Below are positions 3,528 to 31,829 of a DNA stretch of 64,000 nt, one piece after another. The stretch lies in the NCBI RefSeq assembly GCF_000384475.1, contig NZ_ARWB01000001.1:1406176-1470175 (forward strand), written 5' to 3'. The notes beneath the pieces are model-generated. The model searched no databases and was not told the origin of the DNA. It saw only the letters and a list, made by a program, of their open reading frames with translations. Made by a program: the position numbers and the translations under genes. Position 1 is the first letter of the stretch. Each line of letters opens with the position of its first letter. Origin of the DNA: Methylopila sp. M107. GTDB lineage: Bacteria; Pseudomonadota; Alphaproteobacteria; Rhizobiales; Methylopilaceae.

Positions 3528-3579
3528 CCTAGGGACATTCTGACGGATTGTCGGCCTTCGCGCGCTCTGATAGGCCTGC

Positions 3580-3765
3580 TTCATTCGCTACGGCTCCCGC
3601 GAGGGACCATGAGGGAATCCGGTGAGGGCCTCGCCCGAAGCCGGAGCTGCCCCCGCAACTGTGAGCGGCGAGCGGCGCGTCAATTGTCCACTGGGGCTTA
3701 GCCCCGGGAAGGCGGACGCGTCCGTGACGACCCGCAAGCCAGGAGACCTGCCGGCGCGACCAACG
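3580..3765 (+). promoter_or_regulatory. Cobalamin (B12) riboswitch upstream of cbtB
   Basis: The leader contains the conserved cobalamin riboswitch blocks in order: an AGGGAAtCCGGTGaggGCC-like segment (about 3611-3630), GCCGGAGCTGCCCCCGCAACTGTGA, the B12 box core, at 3639-3664, and GACCCGCAAGCCAGGAGACCTGCC near 3728-3751. Adenosylcobalamin binding normally blocks expression of the downstream genes. It sits about 40 bases before cbtB, so cobalt import, and perhaps the co-directional cobU-cobW genes, should be shut off when B12 is abundant. Edges are approximate. Confidence 0.88.
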
Positions 3766-3803
3766 CTTAAAGCCCTCGGTGGGAGGGCGTGAAAGGCCTT
3801 GAA

Positions 3804-6528: not shown

Positions 6529-6613
6529 GCCCTTGTCCCGGCCTTGAGCCGGGACCCAGTCGCGCTGCGTAAACTGCTGGGATTATGGGTCCCGGCTCGA
6601 GGCCGGGACGAGA
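6529..6613. repeat. Palindromic repeat pair (family A, GTCCCGGCCTTGAGCCGGGAC)
   Basis: Two hairpins, TCCCGGCCTTGAGCCGGGA and TCCCGGCTCGAGGCCGGGA, in inverted arrangement about 45 bases apart, ending ten bases before the cobN ATG. The same sequence recurs at 29.46-29.58 kb and 33.0 kb. It is a dispersed REP-like element. Confidence 0.75.
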
Positions 6614-6622
6614 AGGGAACCG

Positions 6623-9600
6623 ATGCATCTCCTGAAGGCCCAAGGGACGCCGATCGGCGACGGGACGGAGGCGGTCGATCTCGACCTGTCGCCGGCCGAC
6701 GTCGTGATCGTCTCGGCCGCCGACACGGAGATCGCAGGCCTCGCCCGCGCCCACGCGGCGCTGGGGCGGGACGCGCCATCGTTGAGGCTCGCGAGCCTCC
6801 AGAAGCTCCGCCATCACATGTCGGTCGACCTCTTCCTCGAGAAGACCGTCTCGCGCTCGCGCCTTTTGGTGCTGAGGCTGCTCGGCGGCGAAAGCTACTG
6901 GCCCTACGGCGTCGAGGAGGCCGCGCGCATCACGCGCCGCCACGGAGTGAAGCTCGCGGTCATGCCCGGCTGCGGCAACGCCGATCCCGACCTCATCGCG
7001 CGCTCGACGATCGCCGCTCAAGACAGTGAGACGCTCTGGCGATTGCTCGTCGAGGGCGGGCCGGAAAACCTCGCCTCCGCGCTCAGAGCCTGCCAGTCGC
7101 TGCTCGACGGCGAGCCAGCGCCCGAGAGCCCGAAACCGACGCCCGCCGCAGGCTTGTTCTGGCCGGGGCTCGCCTCGCCGACCCTCGACGACCTCAGGGC
7201 GCGCTGGGCTAAGGACGCCCCTGTCGCGCCGATCGTGTTCTACCGCGCGCAGTATCAGGCCGGCGACGTCGCGCCTGTCGAGGCGCTGATCGCAGCGCTC
7301 GAAGAACGCGGGCTCGGCGCGCTGCCGATCTTCGTCTCTTCTCTGAAGGATGCTTCCGCCGCCCGCTTCGTGCGCGAGACGTTTGCGGCGGCGAAGCCGG
7401 ACGTCGTGCTGAACGCGACGGCCTTCGCGGTCTCGAAGCCCGGCGCCTCTTGGGAGGGCTCGCCGCTCGATTCGGCCGACGCGCCCGTGCTGCAGATCGT
7501 GTTCGCCGGCATGGACAGGGCGACCTGGGAGGGCTCGCCGCGCGGGCTCGGCGCCCGCGACCTCGCAATGTCGGTCGCGCTGCCCGAGATCGACGGGCGT
7601 GTGCTGACCCGCGCGGTCGCGTTCAAGTCGGTCGGCCGGTTCGACGCCGCGACCGAGACCGAGGTGGTGGCGCTGGAGCCGGTTCAGGACCGTATCGACT
7701 TTGTCGCCGACCTCGCCGCGAACTGGTCGCGGCTGCGCCGGACGCCGCGCGCCGAGCGGCGGGTGGCGCTGATTCTCGCCAATTACCCGACCGGCGCCGC
7801 GCGGCTCGCGAACGGCGTCGGGCTCGACACGCCGGAGAGCACGGCGGTGATTCTGGGCGCGCTGAAGGGCGCCGGATACGCGGCCGACGGCGCGCTGGAG
7901 ACGGGCGCGAAAGTCGTCGACGCGATGACGGCGGCGCTCGAGCGGTCGCTCGCTCGACGCGTCCCCCAACCACCGCCGTCATCCCCCGGCTCGTCCGGAG
8001 GATCCGGGCTTCAGCCAGCCTCGATGGCGGACGGATCGCGCTCGACGCCGACGCTGGATGCCCCGGACGAGCCGGGGCATGACGAGGCTTTTTCTGGACC
8101 AGCGTCGCTTCCCCTCGCCGCCTACCAGCGCTTCCTCTCCGCGGTCCCCGCCGCCGCGCGGGAGAGAATGACGGCGCGCTGGGGAGCCCCGTCCACCGAC
8201 CCGACGTTCGACCCGGCGACCCAAACCTTCCGCCTCGCCATCCGCCGCTACGGCAACCTCGTGCTCGGCGTGCAGCCCTCGCGCGGCTTCGACCTCGACC
8301 CGAAGGCGGCGCATCACGATCCGGACCTTCCCCCGCCGCACGGCCACCTCGCCTTCTACGCCTGGCTGCGCGACGAGTTCGGCGCGCAGGCGATCGTCCA
8401 TGTCGGCAAGCACGGCAATCTGGAATGGCTGCCGGGAAAGGCGCTGGCGCTGTCTGCGGAATGCTTTCCAGAAATCGCGCTCGGCCCCCTGCCCCACATC
8501 TATCCGTTCATCGTCAACGACCCCGGCGAGGGCGCGGCGGCGAAGCGGCGATCGTCCGCCGTCATCGTCGACCACCTGACGCCGCCGCTCGCCCGCGCGG
8601 AGGGCTCCGCGCAGTTGCGTGAGATCGAGACGCTGGTCGACGAATACGCGGAGGCCGAGGGGCTCGACCCGCGCCGCGCGAAAACGCTCGGCAAGCAGAT
8701 CCTTTTGCGCGCCGCTGATCTCGGCCTCGACCGCGATTGCGGGTTCTCGATCGCCGACGATCCCGACGACGCGCTGACCAAGCTCGACGCGTTTCTCTGC
8801 GAGGTGAAGGAGCTGCAGGTCCGCAATGGCTTGCACGTGTTCGGGCGCTCGCCGGTCGGACGGAAGCGCGCGGAGCTGCTGGTGGCGCTGGCGCGCAACC
8901 CGCGCGGACCAAGGGCGGCTGACGCGTCGCTGATCCGGGCGCTGGCGGCGGACATGGGGCTCGGAGGGTTCGATCCGCTGGCGGCGGAGTTTTCGGCGGT
9001 CTGGACGGGAGCGCGGCCGGCGGCGCTTCAGGCGCTGTCGCAAGAGCCGTGGCGGACGGCTGGCGACACGGTCGAGCGGTTGGAGACGCTGGCGCTGAGT
9101 TTGGTGGAAGAGGCTGGCTCCTCTCCGCCGTCGTCCCCCGGCTGGTCCGGGGGACCCATGGGTCGACGGGACTCGATCCTTGACCGGTCGCGCTCCACGC
9201 CAAGCATGGATCCTCCGGACAAGCCGGATGATAACGCGCTTCGTTCTGACGCCTCCGGGATTGCGGCCGCCCTCCCCGCCGCATCCGCCGTGCTCACCGA
9301 AATTCGCGACGTCATCGCCCCCCGCGTGGACATCAGCGGCGACGCCGAACTCGCAGGCCTGCTGACCGCCCTCGACGGCCGCTTCCTGCCCCCCGGCCCC
9401 TCCGGCGCGCCGACGCGGGGGCGGATCGACGCGCTGCCGACGGGGCGCAACTTCTTCGCGCTCGACCCGCGCTCCGCGCCCACGGAAGCGGCGTGGCGGC
9501 TCGGCCGCGCGAGCGCCGACGTCGTCTGCCGGCGGCATTTCCAGGACCATGGCGAGTGGCCCAAGCGACTCGCGATTTCTGCATGGGGCACGGCCAACAT

Positions 9601-10762
9601 GCGCACCGGCGGCGACGACATCGCCCAGGCGCTAGCGCTTCTTGGCGTCGCGCCGCAATGGGAGGCCGGGTCCTCGCGAGTCGTGGGCCTGGAGGTGCTG
9701 CCGCTCTCGGAGCTGAAGCGACCGCGCGTCGACGTGCTGTTCCGGATCTCCGGCTTCTTCCGCGACGCGTTTCCGTTCCAGATCGACCTGATCGACGAGG
9801 CGGTGAGGCTGGTCGGCGCGCTGGTGGAGGACGCCGAGTCCAACCCCGTCGCCGCCCGCTTCGCACAGGAACGCGCGGCGGGGCGCGAAACGCACTCGAT
9901 TTTCGGCGCGCGCCCCGGCGCCTACGGGACCGGGCTGGCCCCGCTCCTGAACGAGGGCGCATGGGAGACGCGCGAAGACCTCGCGGAGGCCTATCTCGCG
10001 GCCAGCGGCTTCGCCTATGCGCAAGGGATCGAGGGCGCGCCCGCGCGCGCCGGTCTCGAGGCGATCGCGAAGCAAGTCGATGGCGTCGTGCAGGCGCAGG
10101 ACGCGCGCGAGTTCGACCTTTTGGACTCCGACGATTTCCACGAATTCGCCGGCGGGCTTTCGGCCGCGGTCGAGAGGCTGAAAGGCGCGGTGCCGGCGGT
10201 TTATCACCTCGACACCTCGCGGACCGAAACGCCGATCGCGCGGACGCTCGGTGAAGAAATCGCGCTTGTCGTGCGCGCCCGCGCCGCGAACCCCAAATGG
10301 ATCGCCGCGATGCGCGGGCACGGCCATAAGGGCGCGGCTGAGATGCTGGCGACGGTGCGTAACTTGATGGGGTTCGCGGCCACCACGGACGCGACAGGGA
10401 ACCACCAGTTCGAGGCGCTGTACGACGCCTATCTCGGCGACGCCGAGACGCGGGCGTTCATCGCAGAGGCGAACCCGGCGGCGCTTGCCGAGATGGCGGC
10501 GGCGTTCCTTGAGAGCGAACGCCGCGGTTTCTGGCGCCCCCGCCGCAACAGCGCCCATGACGAGCTCACCGCGCTCGCGGCGTCCCCCTCCCCCTTGCGG
10601 GGAGGGGTAAGGGGTGGGGGTGGTCCAGAAGAAGACGCCACGCCCAACGCCGCTCTAAGCGCGACCGAAGAACTTTATCCTGAGCCACCCCCACCCTTAC
10701 CCTCCCCGCAAGGGGGAGGGAGAGGGACCGTCGCGCCTCACACCAAGGAACGTCGACCATGA
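6623..10762 (+). CDS. cobN: CobN, cobaltochelatase large subunit with in-frame repeat insertions
   Basis: Large subunit of the ATP-dependent aerobic cobaltochelatase (CobNST), which inserts Co(II) into hydrogenobyrinic acid a,c-diamide. The magnesium-chelatase-H-like architecture is clear, including HGHLAFYAWLRDEFGAQAIVH and HVGKHGNLEWLPGKALALS (about 572-615), GRNFFALDPRSAP near 950 and MRGHGHKGAAEML near 1230. At 1379 residues it is about 100 longer than well-known CobN proteins. The excess matches two Pro/Ser-rich inserts (about 451-488 and 835-871) encoded by dispersed palindromes, plus a repeat-encoded tail after about residue 1320. The stop overlaps the cobO ATG (ATGA). The partner subunits cobS and cobT are not in this window. 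Confidence 0.93.
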   Translation: MHLLKAQGTPIGDGTEAVDLDLSPADVVIVSAADTEIAGLARAHAALGRDAPSLRLASLQKLRHHMSVDLFLEKTVSRSRLLVLRLLGGESYWPYGVEEAARITRRHGVKLAVMPGCGNADPDLIARSTIAAQDSETLWRLLVEGGPENLASALRACQSLLDGEPAPESPKPTPAAGLFWPGLASPTLDDLRARWAKDAPVAPIVFYRAQYQAGDVAPVEALIAALEERGLGALPIFVSSLKDASAARFVRETFAAAKPDVVLNATAFAVSKPGASWEGSPLDSADAPVLQIVFAGMDRATWEGSPRGLGARDLAMSVALPEIDGRVLTRAVAFKSVGRFDAATETEVVALEPVQDRIDFVADLAANWSRLRRTPRAERRVALILANYPTGAARLANGVGLDTPESTAVILGALKGAGYAADGALETGAKVVDAMTAALERSLARRVPQPPPSSPGSSGGSGLQPASMADGSRSTPTLDAPDEPGHDEAFSGPASLPLAAYQRFLSAVPAAARERMTARWGAPSTDPTFDPATQTFRLAIRRYGNLVLGVQPSRGFDLDPKAAHHDPDLPPPHGHLAFYAWLRDEFGAQAIVHVGKHGNLEWLPGKALALSAECFPEIALGPLPHIYPFIVNDPGEGAAAKRRSSAVIVDHLTPPLARAEGSAQLREIETLVDEYAEAEGLDPRRAKTLGKQILLRAADLGLDRDCGFSIADDPDDALTKLDAFLCEVKELQVRNGLHVFGRSPVGRKRAELLVALARNPRGPRAADASLIRALAADMGLGGFDPLAAEFSAVWTGARPAALQALSQEPWRTAGDTVERLETLALSLVEEAGSSPPSSPGWSGGPMGRRDSILDRSRSTPSMDPPDKPDDNALRSDASGIAAALPAASAVLTEIRDVIAPRVDISGDAELAGLLTALDGRFLPPGPSGAPTRGRIDALPTGRNFFALDPRSAPTEAAWRLGRASADVVCRRHFQDHGEWPKRLAISAWGTANMRTGGDDIAQALALLGVAPQWEAGSSRVVGLEVLPLSELKRPRVDVLFRISGFFRDAFPFQIDLIDEAVRLVGALVEDAESNPVAARFAQERAAGRETHSIFGARPGAYGTGLAPLLNEGAWETREDLAEAYLAASGFAYAQGIEGAPARAGLEAIAKQVDGVVQAQDAREFDLLDSDDFHEFAGGLSAAVERLKGAVPAVYHLDTSRTETPIARTLGEEIALVVRARAANPKWIAAMRGHGHKGAAEMLATVRNLMGFAATTDATGNHQFEALYDAYLGDAETRAFIAEANPAALAEMAAAFLESERRGFWRPRRNSAHDELTALAASPSPLRGGVRGGGGPEEDATPNAALSATEELYPEPPPPLPSPQGGGRGTVAPHTKERRP
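7975..8086 (+). repeat. Palindromic repeat inside cobN, copy 1 (family C)
   Basis: About 110 bases beginning GCCGTCATCCCCCGGCTCGT and ending GACGAGCCGGGGCATGACG, so the two ends are reverse complements. It is read in frame as a Pro/Ser/Gly-rich stretch containing SPGSSGG, SRSTP and DEPGHDE. It aligns base for base with the copy at 9127-9236 and is in the same reading phase. It interrupts an otherwise conserved CobN region between two globular segments. Confidence 0.85.
9127..9236 (+). repeat. Palindromic repeat inside cobN, copy 2 (family C)
   Basis: Second in-frame copy in cobN, beginning GCCGTCGTCCCCCGGCTGGT and ending GGACAAGCCGGATGATAACG. Encoded peptide contains SPGWSGG, SRSTP and DPPDKPDD, matching copy 1 position by position, although the central 30 bases have diverged. 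The reading phase is identical to copy 1, so the same peptide was inserted twice. Confidence 0.85.
10583..10730 (+). repeat. Inverted repeat forming the cobN C-terminal tail (family B type)
   Basis: TCCCCCTCCCCCTTGCGGGG followed by a GGGTAAGGGGTGGGGGTGG arm is mirrored 70 bases later by CCACCCCCACCCTTACCC and CCCCGCAAGGGGGAGGG. The cobN frame reads through it, giving a low-complexity Gly/Pro tail of about 55 residues after RRNSAHDELTALAA, the natural end of CobN. The stop codon lies beyond the repeat, overlapping the cobO start. Confidence 0.8.
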
Positions 10763-28701: not shown

Positions 28702-29454
28702 TTGACGGCCCATTCGCGCGACACGCCGCAGTTCTACCTGACCGCCCCTTCGCCCTGCCCCTACCTCAAGGGCCAGTTCGAGCGAAAAGTCTTCACGCAC
28801 CTTGTCGGCGAGCAGGCGGCGACGCTGAACGACCTGCTGACGCATGGCGGCTTCCGCCGCAGCCAGACCATCGCCTACCGCCCCGCCTGCGAGAGCTGCC
28901 GCGCCTGCGTCTCGGTGCGCGTGCGGGTCGACGAGTTCGTGTGGACCAAGGCGTTCCGCCGCAACCGCGCGGTCAACCGCGACCTCGTCCGCGCAGACAT
29001 CGGGACGACGCCCACCTCCGAGCAGTATTCGCTGTTCCGCGCCTATCTCGACCGCCGCCATTCCGACGGCGGCATGGTCGACATGACGGTGCTCGACTAC
29101 GCAACCATGGTCGAGGACAGCCACGTCCGCACCGGCCTCGTGGAGTATCGCCGCCGCGGTCCGGACACCGCGATCAACGGCAAGGGACAGGGGCCCCTGA
29201 TCGCGGTCGCGCTGGTCGACCGGCTCTCGGACGGGCTGTCGCTGGTCTACTCGTTCTACGACCCCGAGCAGTCCGAGCGCGGCCTCGGCACCCACGTCAT
29301 CCTCGACCATATCGAGCAGGCCCGGAAGCTCGGCCTGCCGTACCTCTACCTCGGCTACTGGGTCGATGGCTCGCCGAAGATGGACTACAAGCGGAGGTTC
29401 CGCCCGCAGGAGTTTTTGAGCCCCGGCGGATGGGTGCTGCGCGAGGGGGAATAG
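28702..29454 (+). CDS. bpt: Bpt, aspartate/glutamate leucyltransferase (N-degron pathway)
   Basis: Transfers leucine from Leu-tRNA to N-terminal Asp or Glu of proteins, making them ClpAP/ClpS degradation substrates. The 250-residue protein has the Ate/Bpt N-terminal block [20 protein letters not shown], the Cys pair [12 protein letters not shown] and the C-terminal GNAT-like segment [20 protein letters not shown]-type with [20 protein letters not shown]. The start is TTG at 28702, with GAGGAC about 10 bases upstream; no in-frame ATG exists before the conserved block. Confidence 0.92.
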
Positions 29455-29455
29455 C

Positions 29456-29583
29456 CCCGCGCCCTTGTCCCGGCCTTGAGCCGGGACCCATAGCCACCAT
29501 GGCGTCCGGACGATCCCGCCGCGCGGTGCGCCGTTTTGGCGGGCGCGTCTGTGTCCCGGCTCAAGGCCGGGACAAGGGCGCGG
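29456..29583. repeat. Long inverted repeat (family A) between bpt and parC
   Basis: CGCGCCCTTGTCCCGGCCTT / GAGCCGGGACCC on the left is mirrored by TGTCCCGGCTCAAGGCCGGG / ACAAGGGCGCG on the right, each arm itself a hairpin. It fills the space between the convergent bpt and parC stops and could terminate both. The same family precedes cobN. Confidence 0.75.
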
Positions 29584-29585
29584 GG

Positions 29586-31829
29586 TTACCCCCCGAACCT
29601 ATTCGACTTCGGGAACCCATGCGGCGGCAGCCTGCCGGCCTCGGCGCGGTTCCCGAGCCAGTCCCGCAGTTCCTCGCCCTTCACAAGCCGAGCCACGCCG
29701 CCATTGGTCGTGAAGCTCAGCCCCTCGGCGAGCGAAAACACCTTGGCGTCGGAGACGCCGCCGTCCTTGTAGCGCTGCAGGCGCACGCCCGCGCCGCGCG
29801 CCATCTCGGCGACCTGCGAAATGGGAAACAGCAGCAGCTTCCTGTTCTGCCCGACGATCGCGACCGTGTCGCCATCGGCGACCGCGAACAGCAGCAGCCT
29901 CGCCTTGTCGTCGAGGTTGACGACCTGCCGCCCCTTGCGGGTCGACGACAGCAGCTGGTCCTCGGAAATCAGAAACCCGCGCGCCTCGCTCGTCACGACG
30001 AGGCGCTTGCGCCCCGCCTTGTGCGCGAAGGCGGCGACGATGTCGGCGCCGTCGTCGAAATCGACCATGAGCCGGATCGGCTCGCCGGTGCCGCGCCCGC
30101 CCGGCAGCTTCGACGCCTCGAGCGTAAAGGCCTTGCCGTTCGAGGTCGCGATCAGGATCTTGGCGGTCGTCTCGGTCGGGAAGGCGAATTTGAGCTTGTC
30201 GTCGGCCTTGAAGGCGAGGCCCGAGACGTCCGCCACATGACCTTTCAGCGCGCGGATCCAGCCCTTCTCGGAAATCACCACCGTGACCGGCTCGCGCTCG
30301 ACGAAGGCGTCGGCGACGTCGGCTGCGGTCGCCGACGGCGGCGCCTCGAAGCTGGTGCGACGCTTGCCCAGGGCTGTGTCGGGGCCGAACGCCTTTTCCA
30401 GCCCGTCGAGCTCCTTGCCGACGCGCTTCCACTGCTTCGCCTCGGAGCCGAGAAGGCCGCGCAGCTCCTCGCCTTCCTTGGTCAGCTTCTCGTGCTCGCG
30501 GCGGATTTCTATTTCCTCGAGCTTCGCCAGCGAGCGCAGCCGCATGTTGAGGATCGAGTCGGCCTGCAGCTCGGTGAGGTCGAAGGCCTTCATCAGATCG
30601 GCCTTCGGGTCGTCCGCCTGCCGGACGATGCGGATCACCTCGTCGACATTGAGGAACGCGATCAGCAGCCCATCGAGAATCTCGAGGCGGCGGACGATGG
30701 CGTCGAGCCGGTGCTGCGAGCGGCGCTGGATGACCTCGCGGCGATGGTCGAGCCAGTGGCGCAGAGCGTCCTTCAGGCCGAGCACCATGGGAGTCTGGCC
30801 CTTGACCAGCACGTTCATGTTGATCGGGATGCGGGTCTCGAGCTCGGTGAGCTTGAACACCGACTCCATCATCACGACCGGGTCGACCTGGCGGGCGCGC
30901 GGCTCCAGCACGAGGCGGATCACGTCGGTCGACTCGTCGCGGACGTCGACCACCAGCGGCATCTTGCGCTCGTTGATCAGCTCGGCGATCCGCTCGACCA
31001 GCCGGCTCTTCGGGATGCCGTAGGGGATTTCGGTGATCACGACGACCCAGGTTCCGCGCCCCAGATCCTCGACGGACCAGCGCGCGCGGGTGCGGAACGA
31101 GCCCCTGCCCGTCCGGTAGCTCTCGGCGATGACCGAGGCCGAATCCACGATCACGCCGCCGGTCGGAAAGTCCGGTCCGAGAACGTGCTCCAGCAGCGCC
31201 TCGGTCTCGGCGTTGGGGTCGGCGAGCAGCACGCGCGCGGCGCGCACCAGCTCGGTCACGTTGTGCGGCGGGATCGACGTCGCCATGCCGACCGCGATGC
31301 CCTGGGAGCCGTTCGCGAGCAGGTTCGGGAACGCGCTCGGCAGGACGATCGGCTCCTGCTCCAGGCCGTCATAGGTCGCGCGGAAGTCGACCGCGTTCTC
31401 TTCGAGCCCATCGAGCAGAAGGCGCGCGACTTCGGTGAGGCGCGCCTCGGTGTAGCGCATGGCGGCGGCGTTATCGCCGTCGACATTGCCGAAATTGCCC
31501 TGCCCCTCGACCAGCGGCCAGCGCTGCGCAAAGTCCTGCGCGAGCCGCACCAGCGCGTCGTAGATCGATTGGTCGCCATGCGGGTGGTATTTGCCCATCA
31601 CGTCGCCGACGACGCGGGCGCATTTCTTGAACGCGGCCCCGGGATCGAGCTTCAGCTCGCGCATCGCCCACAGCACGCGGCGGTGGACGGGCTTCAGCCC
31701 GTCGCGGACGTCGGGGAGCGCGCGCTGCGTGATGGTCGAGAGCGCATAAGCGAGGTAGCGCTCCTCCAGCGCCGACCGGAGGTCGACGGGAAGAACGCCG
31801 TCTTCGGGCGGAGGCGCTAGTTCGCTCAT
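29586..31829 (-). CDS. parC: ParC, DNA topoisomerase IV subunit A
   Basis: Breakage-reunion subunit of topoisomerase IV, decatenating chromosomes. 747 residues: winged-helix core with [17 protein letters not shown] (about 40-56), [20 protein letters not shown] (80-99) and the catalytic tyrosine in [11 protein letters not shown] (Y126). ISEIPYG-like [16 protein letters not shown] follows, then a coiled coil and a C-terminal beta-pinwheel. The length favours ParC over GyrA, as does the absence of a GyrA box in the tail. The quinolone-determining position equal to E. coli Ser80 is Gln87 here. Confidence 0.93.

Follow-up and report, generated by a model that had tools for sequence, protein, structure and literature searches.

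The cobN gene of Methylopila sp. M107, encoding the cobaltochelatase subunit CobN, contains two inserts that are probably dimers of a CGTC-tagged REP, inserted in frame at linkers of the protein, tolerated there, and filtered by reading phase. Head-to-head (HH) dimers of a dispersed, mostly intergenic alphaproteobacterial superfamily of CGTC-tagged REPs would have entered two cobN linkers in frame; insertions breaking the frame, bringing a stop, or giving a hydrophobic phase would have been purged, and those in flexible linkers would have survived, later to be replaced or deleted while CobN kept working. In-frame palindromic repeats have been proposed, mostly from Rickettsia, as raw material for new protein segments, and a dozen genomes of a free-living genus with both filled and empty sites make gain, loss, phase selection, and the fate of inserts measurable.

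The window (the whole stretch of 64,000 nucleotides that was analyzed) occupies positions 1406176-1470175 of a 4.45 Mb single-contig genome (G000), and the product of its cobN gene (Table 1) scored 1458 bits against TIGR02257 compared to a cut-off of 822. From their translations, the gene before cobN is presumably cobW-like and those after it cobO- and cobQ-like. The hairpin upstream of cobN ends 10 bases 5' of the ATG and might affect cobN translation. A CobN match was identified in 51 genomes and 28 CobNs were aligned, 12 from the same genus including the window genome (records named Methylopila, Hansschlegelia, and Chenggangzhangella) and 16 from other families. The cobN of G009 was left out, as a contig end cuts it at site 2, and for C. 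methanolivorans (G008) the middle piece alone was used and the tail left out of the tail counts. The latter gene (G008:C1:5378665-5382651) is split over three frames, which may represent sequence errors. The window CobN exceeded the 16 aligned other-family proteins (1223-1294 aa) by 85-156 residues, in agreement with the original prediction of a protein about 100 residues longer than known CobNs.

Table 1. Positions of cobN, its palindromic repeats, and related features (window coordinates unless a contig is given).
Feature	Position	Strand	Remarks
cobN, cobaltochelatase subunit CobN, 1379 aa	6623..10762	+	Intact open frame, three palindromic repeats
CGTC-tagged HH dimer 1	7977..8084	+	108 nt, residues ~452-488, site 1, phase a
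CGTC-tagged HH dimer 2	9129..9236	+	108 nt, residues ~836-872, site 2, phase a
Third palindromic repeat, family T (CCTCCCCCTTGCGGGGAGGG)	10583..10723	+	Residues ~1321-1367, CobN C-terminal tail
Hairpin like family C (TTGTCCCGGCCTTGAGCCGGGACC)	6532..6612		Upstream of cobN, outside the protein
Second family C-like hairpin (TTGTCCCGGCC..)	29446-29594		Within the window
Cobalamin riboswitch	3574-3769		Within the window
CGTC dimer in UvrB N-terminal linker	G000:C1:397781-397873 (L098 12781-12873)		Phase as in cobN

Two palindromes of about 110 bases had been predicted in one phase of the cobN frame with related peptides, and both were recovered within a frame open over 1379 aa, with SPG(S/W)SGG, SRSTP, and D(A/P)PD(E/K)P all present. 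The arms of dimer 1 are 29 nt long and 90% complementary, and dimer 2 is more decayed with best ungapped arms of 23 nt. In the same orientation, the copies match at 71% over 124 nt or 74% over 103 nt, and copy 1 matches inverted copy 2 at 71% over 111 nt; orientation says little because the inverted match is nearly as good as the direct one. The CGTC tag is present at one end (copy 1 starts with CGTCAT and copy 2 with CGTCGT), and the far end of copy 2 reads ATAACG, a decayed tag. Read by eye, the left unit of copy 2 consists of the stem GTCCCCCGG/CCGGGGGAC, the loop CTGGT, and the tail CCA, and that of copy 1 has one stem mismatch and the tail CCG, in keeping with the 8-9 bp stem, 4-5 nt loop, and CCA-like tail of the superfamily. 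An assembly artefact was ruled out by the single-contig genome and by palindromic inserts here in nine other same-genus genomes, a tandem repeat by the 1152 bases between copy starts, and a spurious frame by the conserved blocks flanking both inserts on each side.

The cobN inserts are members of a dispersed repeat. Allowing up to three mismatches, the arm pattern matched 192 genome places (102 forward and 90 reverse) compared to 1 + 0 in the reversed control. The predicted dispersed, intergenic nature of the palindrome was upheld for the genome but not for the window, where CGTC arms were found only in cobN; the other palindromes of the window belong to other families, and the dispersed CGTC copies are in other parts of the genome. 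Evenly spaced 20 kb stretches (80 in number) plus the window, together 1,664,000 bases including 7,504 N, were scanned with a position weight matrix, at a threshold set above the reversed control, and contained 32 HH dimers and 29 single arms, with the two cobN dimers as the only ones in the window. With the addition of 33 stretches around pattern matches, drawn from the ~100 of 192 matches listed, at least 74 distinct dimers were read in this genome as a non-random set, and HH dimers with 20-100 bp spacers were among its repeats. Judged from reading frames and flanks, 71 of the 74 lie outside open frames with coding-like flanks and would be dispersed and mostly intergenic, compared to three inside such frames, two in cobN and one in uvrB. 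The 50-codon coding-flank test was passed by 0/32 dimers, both cobN dimers failing too, and three passed once it was loosened to longer flanks plus an open frame; the loosened test is calibrated on cobN itself because the strict version failed even the cobN dimers. In H. beijingensis, a tandem cluster of ~10 CGTC units at 112-base spacing was observed (G002:C6:52454-53597).

Both dimers lie between conserved blocks of the protein. Alignment to the solved CobN 9uk9 gave matched blocks at residues 1-421, 498-833, and 888-1320, separated by gaps of 33 chain residues vs. 76 query residues at site 1 and 10 vs. 54 at site 2. From anchor to anchor, the window CobN linkers span 51 residues at site 1 and 57 at site 2, compared to short linkers of 6-10 and 9-21 residues, respectively, in 14 of the 16 other-family CobNs. 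The other-family genome G032 has a 39-residue site 1 linker with a CGTC-type palindrome, and G045 a 62-residue site 2 linker of different sequence with no palindrome, such that the site 2 slot can be long for other reasons. None of the 16 carried the insert peptides without similarity to the repeat DNA. The block borders and passages of PMC12583661 probably place site 1 close to the border between neck and body in the class I chelatase fold, and site 2 within its domain IV. The CobN relative HmuS is described in that source as having a 120-residue disordered, methionine-rich insertion in domain IV (residues 780-898), which falls near site 2 (+/- ~15 residues) by gapless extrapolation from two anchors (window CobN residue 743 = HmuS 684; window CobN residue 902 = HmuS 927); the link rests on extrapolated numbering because a profile search for a direct site 2/HmuS match returned no HmuS match. 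An AlphaFold model of residues 130-1320 built from 10 sequences (pLDDT 40, pTM 0.27) was too poor to place the inserts, and linker flexibility was inferred from the alignment gaps because of this low pLDDT.

The C-terminal tail repeat of the window CobN was absent from the original prediction and belongs to a different family (T) from the CGTC dimers; the 1.664 Mb sample contained 70 family T arms, grouped in 42 clusters. Matches to family C were identified in 13/13 genomes (a single match in two of them) and to families D and G in 9/13 genomes each, all with 0 in the reversed control. The own genome has one family G match, and the plain G pattern gave 0 matches in its 1.664 Mb sample, making G a repeat of the relatives. 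A family D palindrome also lies in frame with coding-like flanks in some other gene (stretch L107 9135-9261).

Sister species carry different repeats, or no repeat, in these cobN linkers, and palindromic repeats from five families were identified at at least one of three places in 10 of the 12 same-genus CobNs. Site 1 contains CGTC in phase a in the window genome and G011, CGTC in phase b in M. turkensis and M. sp. Yamaguchi, family C in C. methanolivorans and H. zhihuaiae (the latter assigned by likeness to the former), family D in H. plantiphila, only a short family C-like hairpin in G007, and no repeat in M. jiangsuensis, M. capsulata, H. beijingensis, and H. quercus. Site 2 is occupied by CGTC-type dimers in eight genomes (the window genome, G011, H. 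zhihuaiae, H. plantiphila, M. turkensis, M. sp. Yamaguchi, M. jiangsuensis, and C. methanolivorans) and by family G in G007 and M. capsulata, with no repeat in the two species H. beijingensis and H. quercus. Tail repeats occur in 6/11 same-genus CobNs, namely family T in the window genome and, in five relatives, family D (H. plantiphila and M. jiangsuensis) or G (M. turkensis, G007, and M. capsulata). The CobNs of H. beijingensis and H. quercus have no repeat at site 1, site 2, or the tail. The short, native-looking site 2 linker of H. beijingensis contains CGTCCTCCGG, read as SSG, which is possibly a decayed CGTC remnant. Counting family and phase alone and assuming that no family turns into another, at least four events are needed to account for site 1, two for site 2, and three for the tail. 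On a conserved-block tree, sister species differ, with M. turkensis and M. jiangsuensis unlike at both sites and the window genome and G011 unlike in the sequence type of both inserts.

A single ancestral CGTC insertion per linker, inherited with stems and spacers that later diverged or were overwritten by recombination with other genomic copies, and with few real insertions, is a possible but doubtful alternative. All eight site 2 CGTC dimers have phase a and almost the same starting residue, leaving room at that site for one ancestral insertion with later change; the site 1 insert common to M. turkensis and M. sp. Yamaguchi matches at 89% over 117 nt, and the 108 nt length of both window copies, common to several cobN copies, was found in none of the other 72 own-genome dimers (four of which are longer at 139-147 nt). 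Against such inheritance, site 1 is shared by the unrelated families C, D, and CGTC and site 2 by G and CGTC, CGTC is present in two phases at site 1, and the best listed non-self matches of both window copies lie outside cobN. For copy 1, these were M. sp. Yamaguchi C5 (79%), own-genome position 2519351 (77%), and M. turkensis C2 (76%), with cobN site 2 of G008 and of M. turkensis matching at 75% and 73%; scoring covered 40 of the 127-256 first-look candidates in each genome, and a closer match may therefore exist. For copy 2, they were G011 C102 (79%), G009 C33 (77%), and H. zhihuaiae C61 (77%). For both copies, the sister species G011 had no match at its cobN among those listed. Eleven matching copies in relatives were inspected, including the top two for copy 1 and the top four for copy 2, and none lies in an open frame flanked on both sides by coding-like sequence. 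The spacers of the two cobN copies appear related by eye, and one copy may be derived from its counterpart or both may stem from a subtype with long spacers. The repeats do not resemble a GTAG REP mobilised by a RAYT, as their tag is CGTC and no PF01797 (Y1, RAYT-type transposase) was found in the own genome (0/1 compared to 5/14 controls).

Besides the two in cobN, the own genome has one further intragenic dimer, in a gene that is presumably uvrB from its sequence. A CGTC dimer was identified in the N-terminal linker of five of the 13 genus UvrBs (window genome, G009, H. zhihuaiae, H. plantiphila, and H. beijingensis). In G007 and M. capsulata, this linker carries a palindrome of a different family, and in 6/13 genomes no palindrome was visible. 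The uvrB linker behaves like the cobN linkers, and uvrB of Rickettsia conorii is already among the REP-carrying genes described in PMC3733652.

The phase of the inserts is biased to a hydrophilic peptide. The 17 CGTC dimers counted (12 in genus cobN and five in uvrB) comprise 15 in phase a, two in b, and none in c, with phase a in 10/12 cobN dimers (the other two in b) and 5/5 uvrB dimers. The left arm encodes SSPG.. in phase a, RHSP.. in phase b, and VIPR.. in phase c, and phase a gives a hydrophilic Ser/Pro/Gly/Asp peptide. Among 71 other dimers, 185/426 frames are stop-free and divide into 63 a, 55 b, and 67 c. Treated as independent, 15/17 in phase a gives p = 6e-6 and zero phase c in 17 gives p = 5e-4, values that overstate the bias, as inserts are shared among related species; with the dimers reduced to five events (site 1 in phase a and in phase b, site 2, uvrB, and G032), 4/5 in phase a gives p = 0.049 and zero phase c in five p = 0.11. 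The count left out six matches that contain two or three errors and have no partner CGTC arm, located in cobN at site 1 of H. zhihuaiae and site 2 of H. beijingensis, H. quercus, G007, and M. capsulata, and in uvrB of H. quercus, their phases being three c and three a. Imperfect matches with a partner arm were kept for M. jiangsuensis site 2, inside the 17, and G032 site 1, outside them.

Shared inserts change without regard to codon position. The dN/dS ratio was 1.02 for the site 1 insert of M. turkensis/M. sp. Yamaguchi, 1.68 and 1.45 for the site 2 and tail inserts of G007/M. capsulata, and 1.52 for the tail insert of M. turkensis/G007, values that rest on few changes (141 codons pooled), compared to 0.13-0.18 in the core and reached by 0 of 229-230 same-size core windows. 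The ratio is high because dS is low and the DNA slow: core windows with dS as low as the insert numbered 1/230, 0/229, 0/229, and 0/229, and those reaching the insert pN 22/230, 18/229, 10/229, and 128/229. The insert peptides are no faster than the core, and the DNA itself is held by some process that would not be expected under plain neutrality; this lowers confidence in tolerated, phase-filtered insertion as the best explanation and makes strict neutrality less sure.

The palindrome arms are nearly frozen, differing at 5/203 positions compared to 21/77 in the spacers of three inserts (two in cobN, one in uvrB) picked from six aligned pairs for clear arms that we delimited ourselves. For the two cobN pairs, synonymous divergence in the core is 0.37 and 0.22. 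When pairing was predicted across the entire linker, differences at paired vs. unpaired positions in the six pairs were 13/100 vs. 6/29 and 4/116 vs. 8/34 (pairs 1-2), 11/106 vs. 3/44 in the opposite direction (G007/M. capsulata tail), and 3/102 vs. 7/48, 30/162 vs. 17/68, and 11/170 vs. 10/91 (pairs 4-6), such that 5/6 pairs lean toward conserved paired positions. The frozen arms could be due to hairpin constraint, to arm-to-arm template switching, or to exchange with other copies. Exchange is less likely for the G-family insert, because the variant of its stem that G007 and M. capsulata carry in cobN occurs nowhere else among the matches listed. Hairpins kept for a role in the mRNA (ribosome pausing at domain borders, stability, or RNase sites), with the peptide as by-product, would be consistent with arms that barely differ beside such core divergence, with synonymous divergence as low as that of the inserts in at most 1/230 core windows, and with the confined G-family stem variant, which argues against overwriting. 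This role is nevertheless improbable, given that H. beijingensis and H. quercus have no insert at all, that the G007/M. capsulata tail runs in the opposite direction, and that template switching between arms could also keep them matched.

It is very improbable that the inserts constitute a useful new CobN linker, i.e., an adaptive innovation allowing freer head movement or providing a partner site. Their location between matched blocks, the HmuS domain IV insertion near site 2 by extrapolated numbering (PMC12583661), and a pN mostly within the range of the core are compatible with such a function, but both the presence and the sequence of the inserts vary between sister species and their changes ignore codon position. 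Under in-frame insertion of CGTC dimers with subsequent tolerance, the linkers of CobN and UvrB might tentatively be regarded as reusable slots in which, over the genus, unrelated families alternate in one phase, hairpins are near-constant, and the peptide is unselected, a generalization that we hold to be rather unlikely. If true, such slots would be domain-border sites where a nucleic-acid hairpin is tolerated or useful during translation. The inserts also allow CobN to be assayed in their presence and absence, and the combination of codon-blind change with frozen hairpin arms makes the question of selfish DNA, RNA element, or protein part directly testable.

The CGTC-tagged REP superfamily was defined by Di Nocera, De Gregorio, and Rocco (2013; PMC3733652), whose text describes a CGTC tag, an 8-9 bp stem, a 4-5 nt loop, a CCA-like tail, and HH dimers as shared structure, and a mostly intergenic, mainly alphaproteobacterial occurrence with no dedicated transposase and some intragenic copies as shared habits. 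The cobN dimers fit the definition as published there (tag, 9-bp stems, 5-nt loops, CC(A/G) tails, and HH arrangement), and the 9-bp stem plus 5-nt loop would fit families CGTC-3 or CGTC-4 as described in that text. CGTC elements and their intragenic placement are known from the same source, and the host, the gene, and the genus-wide refilling of the same slots are new; the main text of PMC3733652 has no words beginning with "cob" or "Methylo", and a literature search returned no paper on repeats in cobN or Methylopila among the best matches listed. That unrelated repeats have come to occupy identical spots again and again is seen here with unusual clarity. As reported in PMC3733652, recB of two Xanthomonas species carries different REPs at about the same site, and in non-recB genes of one functional category the REPs are located at different sites; unlike those genes other than recB, the linkers studied here are refilled genus-wide by several families. 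The likeness to Rickettsia palindromic elements put forward in the original prediction gained support, as PMC3733652 equates RPE-6 with CGTC-1 and RPE-4 with CGTC-4 repeats (RPE-1, RPE-4, and RPE-6 from Ogata, 2000, 2002, as cited in PMC3733652 and PMC2996958). Similar to the RPEs, the cobN dimers are inserted in frame in what appears from its TIGR02257 score above the cut-off to be an intact housekeeping gene; unlike the RPE hosts, the organisms are free-living methylotrophs and the repeats are GC-rich, and the likeness is one of description. Protein-coding palindromes are also described in PMC2996958 for Wolbachia and Methanocaldococcus, likewise likened by description, where palindromic DNA is again read as protein but the repeats and hosts are different.
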